Source: a virus. From it: DNA of 37,493 nt. This document shows, piece by piece, positions 12,468 through 23,217 of this stretch. Positions within the stretch are counted from its first letter, which is position 1, and every line of letters begins with the position of its first letter. A program made the position numbers and the translations under genes. Where the stretch lies: positions 1-37,493 of the IMG/VR virus record IMGVR_UViG_3300018476_000025; one strand, given 5' to 3'. The notes beneath the pieces were generated by a model. That model was not told where the DNA came from, ran no database searches, and saw only the letters and a list, made by a program, of their open reading frames with translations.

Positions 12468-12998
12468 TCACCCGCGCCTCTTCTGAAACAGCGGCGACGT
12501 TCGCACGCCGACTTCCGGATCGAGGAAGCTGCATTGATAATTCCACAGCGCACACGCGTCGCCTTCGTCGCTGGTGCCGACCATCCAGCCAAGCTGACGG
12601 CAGCGCTCGACCACCATCGGCTTTGCAATCGCGCTCTTCAGGTTCATGCCAAGGAAGTGCGCACGCACCTGCGCCGTCGTCGCTTCGCGAAGCTCGACCT
12701 TGTTGTGGCACCACTCTTCGAGATGCTCAGTGAGTCCGATCAGCATCTTGATCGTCTCGATGTTGGTCTTGCCTGCCATGAACTGGACGTTCGCGCTCTC
12801 GTAGACGATCAGGTCCGGCTGGTGATCGCGGACATTCCACTTGTCCTCCAGCCATGCGCGGAAATTGCGATAGGTCGATGCGCGTGAGCCGCCATTGGAG
12901 AAGCGGACGTGACCGAACTTCGGAGCGCCACGAGGCGGGCCATAGGCCCACCCCGTAGTCGTTGCTAGATCAAGAGCGAGTACGCTGCCCTTGAACAT
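12468..12998 (-). CDS. RuvC-like Holliday junction resolvase, 176 aa
   Basis: The N-terminus LALDLATTTGWAYG is the first RNase H-fold strand with the catalytic Asp (D10), as in RuvC and phage resolvases. LIVYESANVQFMAG supplies the second acidic residue (E in VYES), and TSDEGDACALW at the C-terminus supplies the last acidic cluster. About 176 residues is the RuvC size. It is expected to cut branched DNA during replication, recombination or packaging. ATG at 12998 overlaps the stop of the preceding PEP-CTERM gene by one base (TGATG), so translation of the two is probably coupled. Confidence 0.88.
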   Translation of the reverse strand: MFKGSVLALDLATTTGWAYGPPRGAPKFGHVRFSNGGSRASTYRNFRAWLEDKWNVRDHQPDLIVYESANVQFMAGKTNIETIKMLIGLTEHLEEWCHNKVELREATTAQVRAHFLGMNLKSAIAKPMVVERCRQLGWMVGTSDEGDACALWNYQCSFLDPEVGVRTSPLFQKRRG

Positions 12999-13756
12999 CA
13001 GACAGCGCGGAAGGTTGCGCCGCTGCGCTTGCGGTAGGCCATGACGCCAATGCCCGCGAAGCCCAACAGCATCATCGCCCACGTCGTCGGCTCCGGCACA
13101 GCCGCGACGCCCGGCTCCGCAACGAGGAAGAACGACTCCGCGCCATCGTTCGCACCGGACCAGCGCGCGAAGAAGATCACTTCATCACCGAACGAGATGT
13201 CGCCACGGTCGATGTTGAAACCGCTCAGCGTGTAGTCTGGATAGCCAGTGCCGTTGTTGGTCGCGAGCAACGGAGTGCCGCCCGGTCCCGGTGAGTACGA
13301 CGCCAGCACTGTGCGGTCCGTCAGGTTCAGGAAGTAGAAGCTCTCCAGAGTCTGAGCGACGCCAGTGTCATTGACGTCGATGCCGACGCTGAACGTGGTG
13401 CCCGCTGCCTGCGCCAACAGGTAAGCGCGCAGGATCGAACCGTCACCGACAGCGTAGCCGGTGCCGAGGGTATCTTGTGCGAGCGAGCCGCCGACGGTCG
13501 CCGTTGAGAACATCAGGTAGTCGCTGATGTTGCCTTGAGCTTGGAAATTATTGTACCCGAAGCCCGTGGGCTGCGCTGGTTGGTTGGTGCCGCAAATCAA
13601 GCACGGGTTGTTGAGCGGCTGATTGCCGCCGGGTACTACAGCGGACAGCGTGAGAGTGCTGGTCGAGTCCGTGACGGTGAACGAGTCGATAACGGCAGCG
13701 CTGGCAGGCAATGACATTGCGGCCAGCGCAGTGCAGGCTAGTAGAAACTTTCTCAT
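12998..13756 (-). CDS. PEP-CTERM (exosortase substrate) surface protein, 252 aa
   Basis: ATG at 13756 has a near-perfect AGGAGGA ribosome site, unlike the GGAGCAACC of its neighbours. An N-terminal signal peptide (MRKFLLACTALAAMSLPASA, cleavage near residue 20) is followed by about 200 beta-rich residues with many Gly, Thr, Asn and Ser. The C-terminus is diagnostic: VPEPTTWAMMLLGFAGIGVMAY (220-241) and then RKR. This is the PEPxxWA-CTERM signal: a PEP motif, a membrane helix and a basic patch, which host exosortase recognises. In bacteria such proteins go to the cell surface or exopolysaccharide. Finding one in a phage operon, coupled to a resolvase gene, is unusual. Its middle region is not recognised. 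It may be a host-derived moron gene altering the lysogen surface. Confidence 0.88.
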   Translation of the reverse strand: MRKFLLACTALAAMSLPASAAVIDSFTVTDSTSTLTLSAVVPGGNQPLNNPCLICGTNQPAQPTGFGYNNFQAQGNISDYLMFSTATVGGSLAQDTLGTGYAVGDGSILRAYLLAQAAGTTFSVGIDVNDTGVAQTLESFYFLNLTDRTVLASYSPGPGGTPLLATNNGTGYPDYTLSGFNIDRGDISFGDEVIFFARWSGANDGAESFFLVAEPGVAAVPEPTTWAMMLLGFAGIGVMAYRKRSGATFRAV

Positions 13757-13772
13757 ATAATCCTCCTCGTAA

Positions 13773-13814
13773 GATGCGGTGTCGCATCGTGGAGCGCAGC
13801 GTAGTTCTGCGCTC
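13773..13814 (-). promoter_or_regulatory. Two tandem hairpins in the leader of the PEP-CTERM gene
   Basis: GAGCGCAG/CTGCGCTC (13792-13799 with 13807-13814, perfect 8 bp, 7-base loop) and GATGCG/CGCATC (13773-13778 with 13783-13788, perfect 6 bp, GTGT loop) lie between the upstream stop at 13824 and the AGGAGG site. Neither has a U tract. They may insulate this cargo gene from the upstream operon or control access to its ribosome site. Confidence 0.5.
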
Positions 13815-13823
13815 GTCGTTGCG

Positions 13824-14306
13824 TCAGTCGATGACGAGAGGCTTGAATGCAACCAGATCAATCGGGACTGCGTAGACCTGCTCCTCCCGCTTGGTTAGAG
13901 GATTGAAGAACCGCGTCTCGTACCAAGACGGTCGGGTGTCCGCCATCACGATCCCCATATGCGTGGTCTCCTTGCACAACTGCACTGCCGCGTAGAGATC
14001 GGTCGCACGATTGAGCGGCTCGATGTTGCCGACGAAGAAGTGCGGATGAGGAAAGTCGCGGCGGCATGTGAAGCTGGTGCGCTCCCAATGCCTGCACTCG
14101 AACCGCCGACGCTCGCCGCCGATGTGAACGAACAGGTCGCCCCTATCAACGTGAGACTCAATCTCGGACACGTCGCTCGCATACGTCATCGCAGGAATCT
14201 CGATGTCGTATCCGCGCCTGTGCATGTGCAGTCCGATCAGGAAGACCGGCGACGATGACGCGCGCATCCTCGCCCTGATCCCGGCTTGAGGTGAGTTCAC
14301 AGTCAT
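13824..14306 (-). CDS. Hypothetical protein, 160 aa
   Basis: ATG at 14306 overlaps the preceding stop (ATGA). It begins MTVNSPQAGIRARMRASSSP, then a hydrophobic strand (VFLIGLHMHRRGYDIEIPAM), a Cys/His/Arg-rich centre (GERRRFECRHWERTSFTCRR) and a compact end rich in Pro and aromatics (PSWYETRFFNPLTKREEQVY). The Cys pair could bind metal. Family not recognised. It precedes the two hairpins and the PEP-CTERM gene. Confidence 0.7.
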   Translation of the reverse strand: MTVNSPQAGIRARMRASSSPVFLIGLHMHRRGYDIEIPAMTYASDVSEIESHVDRGDLFVHIGGERRRFECRHWERTSFTCRRDFPHPHFFVGNIEPLNRATDLYAAVQLCKETTHMGIVMADTRPSWYETRFFNPLTKREEQVYAVPIDLVAFKPLVID

Positions 14307-16244: not shown

Positions 16245-16847
16245 TCACTCTTCCGGAAGGTCCGGACCCCACGACGTCCATCCTTCGCGCCGTCGTCGCG
16301 CGTTCAATTCGATCTTCGGCAGGTTCGGGAAGTAGTGCTCGATCAACTCGGCAACGAGTTCAGGCTTCTCGCTGTGCTTGCCGCGCGGCTGCTCGATCAC
16401 GGACTCCCATTGCTCACCGGGAGCGGGACACGGCACGGTGCCGCGCTTGCCCAGCAACAGGTGCTCGTGCCTGAACCTGAACCAGTAGCCGGTGCCGATG
16501 GACGGCTTCACCCACACGGCATTGGTGACGTAGCCGAAGCCCCAGTGCTTCAGCACCTCGATGGCCTGATCGAGCATCGGCGGCGTCGCCCACATGAAGA
16601 GCATGCAGTCCGGTGCCATGATCGACGGCACGTCGCGCGCCTTGATGTTCTCAATCGGTGATGTCGGATAGTGATTGTCGGCGGAGCGATCCATCCCGGT
16701 CTCACGGGACCACGGCTCCCAGCGCCACTCAGGATCGGCGTAGATCACGCCGTACCTCTCTGAAGGCAGCTTCTTGATCTTCTTCGCGAGTTCGCGCTCG
16801 CGCTTCGCTCTCAGTTTCTTCTTGGTCTTTGCCGCATCGTAGAACAT
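16245..16847 (-). CDS. MT-A70 family adenine-specific methyltransferase, 200 aa
   Basis: YGVIYADPEWRWEPWS (residues 32-47) is the catalytic motif IV of MT-A70 enzymes in a DPEW form; most members have DPPW. CMLFMWATPPM (81-91) and HWGFGYVTNAVWVKP follow, typical of this family. Later RGKHSEKPELVAELIEHYFP supplies the SAM-binding end, with KPELVAELIEHYFP closely matching family members. Phage MT-A70 enzymes methylate adenine at N6. The basic N-terminus (KTKKKLRAKRERELAKKIKK) may bind DNA. The start has GGAGCAACCCGCCA upstream. No restriction enzyme gene is nearby, so it is probably an orphan methylase for protection or regulation. Confidence 0.9.
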   Translation of the reverse strand: MFYDAAKTKKKLRAKRERELAKKIKKLPSERYGVIYADPEWRWEPWSRETGMDRSADNHYPTSPIENIKARDVPSIMAPDCMLFMWATPPMLDQAIEVLKHWGFGYVTNAVWVKPSIGTGYWFRFRHEHLLLGKRGTVPCPAPGEQWESVIEQPRGKHSEKPELVAELIEHYFPNLPKIELNARRRREGWTSWGPDLPEE

Positions 16848-22292: not shown

Positions 22293-22735
22293 CCGACATC
22301 AGGACGGAGCGGATCGGTCTCCCGCGAATGCGGACTCGACTGTCGCCACTCAAGATTACAGCCGCCGCATCCGCGATGGCAGCGCTGCTGATGGTGTTCG
22401 CGATCCAGCGCTTGCCCAGCGCTGAGCGCATCGAGGTGCCGCCGCCAGTCATTCCGGAGGTGACGTCGTCGTCGGTCGGCAAGACTCACCGCGAGCCGGT
22501 CCGTGTGATCGAGACGGTGCACGTCGCATCGACTGAGCCGGTGCCGGTGAAGACCGAGACCATCCGGCCAGAGCCCACACCATCAGTCGTGCCTCCGGTG
22601 ATCATGCCGCCGGAAGAAGAAACACCGCCGCCGAAGCGGAGGTTGCGCGTGGCTTCGCGCGGCGGTGACGTCTGCACGCGGCACGGCAAGCGCAAGGTGA
22701 TCACGCGCGGTGGCAAGTCGTGGCGGTGTAGATGA
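22280..22735 (+). CDS. Membrane-anchored Pro-rich periplasmic protein, 151 aa
   Basis: GGAGGTACACCCG precedes the ATG at 22280. A basic N-terminus leads into one membrane helix (ITAAASAMAALLMVFAI, about 26-42). A Pro/Val/Glu-rich stretch (VPPPVIPEV, EPTPSVVPPVIMPPEEETPP) follows, like TonB-type spacers that cross the periplasm. The C-terminus is basic with two Cys (VCTRHGKRKVITRGGKSWRC) and could form a small disulfide or metal-bound unit. A role at the envelope, possibly spanin-like, is speculative. Confidence 0.65.
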   Translation: MRSITDIRTERIGLPRMRTRLSPLKITAAASAMAALLMVFAIQRLPSAERIEVPPPVIPEVTSSSVGKTHREPVRVIETVHVASTEPVPVKTETIRPEPTPSVVPPVIMPPEEETPPPKRRLRVASRGGDVCTRHGKRKVITRGGKSWRCR

Positions 22736-23217
22736 GCGACCTTGTGAAGCGACTCCGCGCTGGTCCGTATGATCGGTTTGATCCACGCAAGGATCAGGAA
22801 CTGGAAGACGCTGACTACGTCGAGGCGCTGGAGGCGGACGGTCGCGAAGCCACCCGTCTACTGGACCTTTGGTCTGAAATCCCCGGCGCTGAAGACTTTG
22901 CACCATATCAAGACACAATGACGTTTCTTGGCAAGCCAAACAGTGTTGGCTGGGTCTGGGCGCGTGAGGTTCGAGAGGAGCGAGACTTTGATAAGGAACA
23001 AGCTCGTCAGCGTGATCTAGCAATGCAGTGCGTTTGCGAAGCCGAAGAACGTGAGCAAGCAGCACATGCCCGCATCGAGGCGCTGGAGGCGGGGCGCGAT
23101 GCTGTTGAGAAGAAGTTGTGGGGCCTGAGTACCCAGTGGGCGTTGCACGGAGGCCCATTTGACCACGCGTGGATATCTGAAGTCATGGCCGTCTTCGCAC
23201 CGGAGCAGGACAAGTGA
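22732..23217 (+). CDS. Coiled-coil phage protein, 161 aa
   Basis: ATGA overlap. It begins MSDLVKRLRAG, the start of a known class of phage proteins that continue with repeated IEALEA heptads (here VEALEADGREA and RIEALEAGRDAV). The second half is helical with several Cys. From about 22860 the codons become visibly less GC-biased than in neighbouring genes, continuing to about 23370, which may mark a different origin. Function unknown. Confidence 0.7.
   Translation: MSDLVKRLRAGPYDRFDPRKDQELEDADYVEALEADGREATRLLDLWSEIPGAEDFAPYQDTMTFLGKPNSVGWVWAREVREERDFDKEQARQRDLAMQCVCEAEEREQAAHARIEALEAGRDAVEKKLWGLSTQWALHGGPFDHAWISEVMAVFAPEQDK

Follow-up and report, generated by a model that had tools for sequence, protein, structure and literature searches.

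A phage gene encoding an exported protein with a PEPxxWA-CTERM tail belongs to a virus family built of apparently exchangeable parts

The stretch of DNA analysed here – referred to below as the window – is an entire IMG/VR virus record of 37,493 bases, linear and metagenome-derived. Its large genes encode a tail sheath, a tape measure protein, an endolysin, a head closure protein and other tail proteins, and the record can therefore be assigned to a contractile-tailed soil phage; a primase, a helicase, exonuclease VIII and a RecT-like protein are encoded as well, and no integrase was seen among the window ORFs tested. The gene of interest lies in the replication region, and its features are collected in Table 1. 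The initial annotation had placed it within a phage operon and read its product as a secreted protein with a beta-rich body, and this description holds: the signal peptide is evident on inspection and in the hydropathy profile, the body is indeed beta-rich, and the neighbours are phage genes both in the window and around the relatives, as expected of a genuine phage gene. The AGGAGG site upstream is likewise present, its difference from the sites of neighbouring genes being judged by eye only. The same minus-strand gene run also includes a DNA methyltransferase gene (PHROG 359; 16245-16847).

Table 1. Features of the PEP-CTERM gene and its surroundings, in window coordinates
Feature	Position	Strand	Remarks
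RuvC-like resolvase gene (PHROG 159, E 1e-10)	12468..12998	(-)	overlaps the PEP-CTERM stop codon by one base, TGATG
CDS of PEPxxWA-CTERM protein	12998..13756	(-)	252 aa; profile matches, relatives, dN/dS
Sorting tail, residues 219-244	13025..13102	(-)	VPEPTTWA motif, hydrophobic helix, RKR cluster
Body A, residues 21-216	13109..13696	(-)	predicted beta-sandwich; virus-specific family
Signal peptide, residues 1-20	13697..13756	(-)	MRKFLLACTALAAMSLPASA; from sequence
Leader element matched by covariance model R1	13754..13826	(-)	window row among those building R1
Ribosome-binding site	13762..13768	(-)	GAGGAGG; from sequence
Leader hairpin 2	13773..13788	(-)	GATGCG-ACAC-CGCATC
Leader hairpin 1	13792..13814	(-)	GAGCGCAG-AACTACG-CTGCGCTC; covarying

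The C-terminal end had been proposed to carry a PEPxxWA-CTERM signal, and a search of this end against the PEP-CTERM models gave significant matches: the tail, with its motif, helix and basic cluster, exceeds three curated cut-offs, namely those of NF035944 for PEPxxWA-CTERM (39.7 bits against 35), TIGR02595 (21.5 against 16) and PF07589 (29.1 against 20.7). The signal is thus bona fide, and the absence of a profile hit is excluded as a ground for doubting it. This ORF alone matches TIGR02595 in the whole window, and 300 Markov shuffles of the window sequence produced no ORF with a VPEPxxWA tail. The 300 bases upstream of the gene contain no TTTACA and no -24/-12 match to the sigma-54 leader motif, which accompanies 99 of 167 proteobacterial PEP-CTERM genes and so is not a defining feature (PMC1569441).

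Relatives of body A, sought by scanning with the protein and then with the alignment, occur in 199 IMG/VR viral contigs, whereas the same kind of scan found them in 2 of 84,980 bacterial and archaeal genomes; these two are 36% identical, sit on a very long branch and end in VPLPA tails. A body-only profile had no match in 397 further genomes that sampled one bacterial phylum evenly; isolated phages and plasmids have no body A relatives, and Pfam and NCBIfam offer no named domain for it. Among INPHARED phages, no convincing PEPxxWA tail was found in any. The company of the relatives is viral too: a set of 78 large ORFs from related loci (denoted L plus a number) gave matches to DNA polymerase, helicase, primase, terminase, endolysin, tail fibre and integrase families. 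Compared with the window, the body evolves with dN/dS of 0.065 (L002), 0.12 (L003) and 0.15 (L004), and the median over the 40 closest pairs is 0.13. The gene is under strong purifying selection and, to judge from these sequences, it is a maintained phage gene whose body represents a virus family.

A coupling to the adjacent resolvase gene had also been suggested. The one-base overlap is present in the window, recurs in L007 and probably in L022, and a RuvC homologue also adjoins the gene in L008; in L007 a primase gene is adjacent too, in L008 an exonuclease gene. RuvC lies 0.2-1.6 kb away with no such overlap in L014, L019 and L020, however, and in many relatives the gene is found near lysis or tail genes or in accessory regions – in L003, L004, L005 and L012, for example, it shares its region with endolysin and/or tail genes. 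Since the gene is located elsewhere in so many relatives, the coupling was rejected as a rule: the RuvC-like neighbour is probably not functionally linked to the PEP-CTERM gene, and their association is local and incidental.

The two hairpins noted upstream of the gene fared better, as they covary across relatives beyond what chance would give. Across 12 aligned leaders, standard pairs fill 90% of the pair cells and both partners vary at 7 of the 13 pairs, more than in shuffled and slid controls. The element matched by R1 occurs once per phage and invariably at these genes, ~1.4 Mb of loci containing no further strong match; beyond the window, leaders are found at L004, L007, L012, L014, L016, L020, L037, L038, L101, L123, L126, L129 and L130, and L129, L130 and L131 were found by R1 although they had not been used in building it. 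The exact 19-base pattern of hairpin 2, sought in all viral contigs, is confined to six (some of them near-identical), always upstream of genes for exported proteins; where these genes can be read to their end, they encode a PEPxxWA tail or, in L012 and L125, a tail of the VPGP type described below. By a hand tally, the leader accompanies roughly 12 of 18 PEPxxW-tailed genes as against 1 of ~65 others, a contrast for which any p-value is merely indicative, the rows being related. Several loci have an additional palindrome, TCCTGATCAGGA or TCCTAGCTAGGA, that overlaps the ribosome-binding site. An Rfam search with the leader returned nothing real, and neither a sigma-70-like promoter nor a T-tailed terminator was found around the gene – though host promoter types may differ. 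That the leader controls translation is our guess.

A survey of the tails attached to body A, covering 66 sequences, revealed at least four C-terminal anchors: PEPxxW(A), the classical PEP-CTERM (PEPxSL), VPLPA and an unnamed type, VPGPxxGAGxPGL..RRRR. The tail type switches at least 13 times on the body A tree; L038, for instance, has a PEPxxW tail and is placed among VPGP-tailed bodies. A second virus family, body B, is unrelated to body A and is carried by 21 viral contigs (loci L128-L147) with a similar range of tails, and in some phages it takes the place of body A beside RuvC. The boundaries are visible at the DNA level as well. Between the window and L020, a stretch of 131 bases is 85% identical and spans the leader hairpins and the signal peptide, after which homology is lost across the body and comes back at RuvC; with L022, the window shares 60 bases at 92% over the signal peptide, and homology returns at the tail and continues into RuvC. 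The signal peptide of the window protein is 92-95% identical to those of phages with an unrelated body, and three other bodies stand behind a similar leader: C (L123/L127), D (L126, cut by the contig end) and E (L016). As homology is conserved at the leader and signal peptide and at the tail and is lost in the body, three exchangeable modules can be read from these alignments: the leader with the signal peptide, the body, and the tail.

Exchange may also extend to neighbouring genes. A small gene of the window (22732-23217, plus strand) is 96% identical over 90 residues to one in L002 (4890-5159) that stands directly upstream of the PEP-CTERM gene there, the window and L002 otherwise having little in common at that locus; a recent exchange of an accessory gene is the probable explanation. 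L017 and L018, for their part, are viral contigs that each show two PEP-CTERM tail matches no more than a few kilobases apart.

What the bodies do can be approached through their predicted folds. AlphaFold2 models the window protein (mean pLDDT 81) as a beta-rich fold flanked by two helices, and Foldseek found no significant match to body A in the PDB or in a viral structure library. Its best PDB matches, all weak, are a glycoside hydrolase accessory domain and CBM32 domains, the top one reaching a VIA Z of 7.1 with an rmsd of 3.3 over 117 residues, which is not significant. The model of body B (pLDDT 80) matches CBM29 at a Foldseek E of 1.7e-4. As judged from these models, a glycan-binding payload is likely for body B and only plausible for body A.

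Neither the window nor any of 24 related and possibly fragmentary phage records encodes an exosortase, and an enzyme of the host would therefore be needed. One class, probably Alphaproteobacteria as its GcrA matches indicate, was sampled with 245 genomes: PF09721 is present in 31, and a single genome passes the PEPxxWA threshold, with an XrtB/XrtV-like exosortase encoded ~8 kb from a tagged protein. Helicase matches to isolated phages all fall below 60% identity, are spread over many hosts and point to no host. Exosortase processing of the window tail would be the natural expectation from its sequence. Bacterial proteins with a VPGPxxGAGLP-helix-RRR tail, several with signal peptides, were observed at L111-L117 in four genomes from a sample of one order (G602, G566, G537 and G514). 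None of these genomes, with their own VPGP-type tails, has a PF09721 exosortase, so some tail types may not be exosortase substrates, and the VPGPxxGAGLP tail is possibly an unnamed sorting signal served, if at all, by another enzyme. Plasmids contain no VPGP tail, and 398 genomes of one phylum yielded four marginal matches, none at a credible protein end.

The phage origin of the gene, its tail, its family, the selection acting on it and the exchange of its modules can, at the level of sequence, be taken as established. The interpretation that we consider to have about an even chance of being right is that of a phage surface-display cassette, relying on host export and probably on a host exosortase to place a probably glycan-binding body on the infected cell. 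Given its signal peptide, the protein would be exported through the host Sec pathway during infection; its C-terminal helix would hold it in the inner membrane with the body outside; and the PEP motif would then most likely be cut by the host's own exosortase, freeing the body or fixing it at the outer surface or within exopolysaccharide. The beta-sandwich, possibly a carbohydrate-binding domain, would probably bind host surface glycans, and this binding could mask phage receptors against superinfection or alter cell aggregation. The phages would keep two host-matched handles – the leader with the signal peptide, and the tail – and swap body or tail by recombination.

The tail might instead be a mere membrane anchor, tethering a periplasmic domain to the inner membrane – where it could, for example, block DNA entry by other phages – with no exosortase action. 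A helix and a basic cluster do suffice for a stop-transfer anchor, the helix and the Arg-rich end stay constant while tail types vary, PEP is replaced by PEL or PEA in some close relatives, and the VPGP-tailed relatives point to genomes without a known exosortase. We nevertheless regard this explanation as less likely than a display cassette: within each class, the motifs ahead of the helix show sharp conservation, and they correspond to known sorting classes; moreover, a mere anchor is not expected to converge on PEPxxWA, PEP-CTERM and VPLPA signals. An exported domain that acts on the envelope at lysis, or joins the virion, appears improbable, although several relatives have the gene only a few kb from endolysin and tail genes; in the window it sits in the replication region, phages differ in where they carry it, and no family of lysis or virion proteins was matched. 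That a host surface gene was recently captured as a passenger or auxiliary gene, serving no phage-specific function, would accord with the typically bacterial occurrence of PEP-CTERM proteins (PMC1569441) and with the VPLPA tails of the two bacterial relatives, yet it is very improbable for a body that is almost missing from sequenced bacteria, diverges among phages and is under purifying selection. A chimeric assembly joining a bacterial gene to a phage contig, conceivable for a metagenome-derived linear record not known to be complete, is already refuted by synteny, the same gene adjoining the same phage genes in independent contigs (RuvC in L007 and L008, with primase or exonuclease, respectively; tail genes in L003, L004 and L005).

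The display-cassette reading can be extended to soil phages at large, a generalisation that we put forward tentatively and think somewhat more apt to fail than to hold: such phages would share a modular display system in which a leader and signal peptide and a host-matched tail frame glycan-binding payloads that are swapped, with host exosortases (or, for VPGP tails, another enzyme) recoating the cells and probably excluding competing phages. Exosortase sorting has so far been described as a bacterial system; if the reading is true, a virus family of ~200 contigs with switching sorting tails would mean that phages exploit surface sorting. Tail type set against host exosortase could then serve as a possible predictor of phage host range, and the family offers a way to approach the unnamed VPGP tail and the enzyme behind it as well as a testable mechanism of surface change in infected cells. 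On the evidence of these sequences, phages may be using the sorting machinery of their hosts to change the surface of infected cells.

Among known systems, the closest is the PEP-CTERM/exosortase (EpsH) system with its PEPxxWA-CTERM class (Haft 2006, PMC1569441; NF035944), of which the window protein represents the substrate side: signal peptide, variable body, PEP motif, helix and basic cluster are the same. Unlike that system, it is phage-encoded, comes with no exosortase in the phage records tested and no sigma-54 leader motif, and has a single body bearing several tail classes across phages. In hot-spring viral contigs, TIGR03118 proteins with a putative exosortase-interaction domain have been mentioned in passing as horizontally acquired (PMC11003980); the window protein is similarly virus-borne with an exosortase-type tail, and body A does not match TIGR03118. 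The literature on PEP-CTERM or exosortase together with phages, prophages or viruses otherwise yielded only passing mentions, none of them as a phage strategy, in a search that left subscription journals mostly outside; as far as could be searched, then, PEP-CTERM proteins are new as a phage theme.

Two further comparisons suggest themselves. Bacterial surface proteins have "choice-of-anchor" domains, as NCBIfam names them, in which one extracellular domain occurs with different C-terminal anchors. Body A resembles these in its varied anchors and differs from them in having no named NCBIfam or Pfam domain and in being nearly virus-only. Phage morons and genes for lysogenic conversion or superinfection exclusion are likewise accessory genes that vary in position and may change the surface of the host; unlike morons, the gene described here specifies a sorting tail, has no promoter or terminator that could be found, and lies on a contig with no integrase seen.
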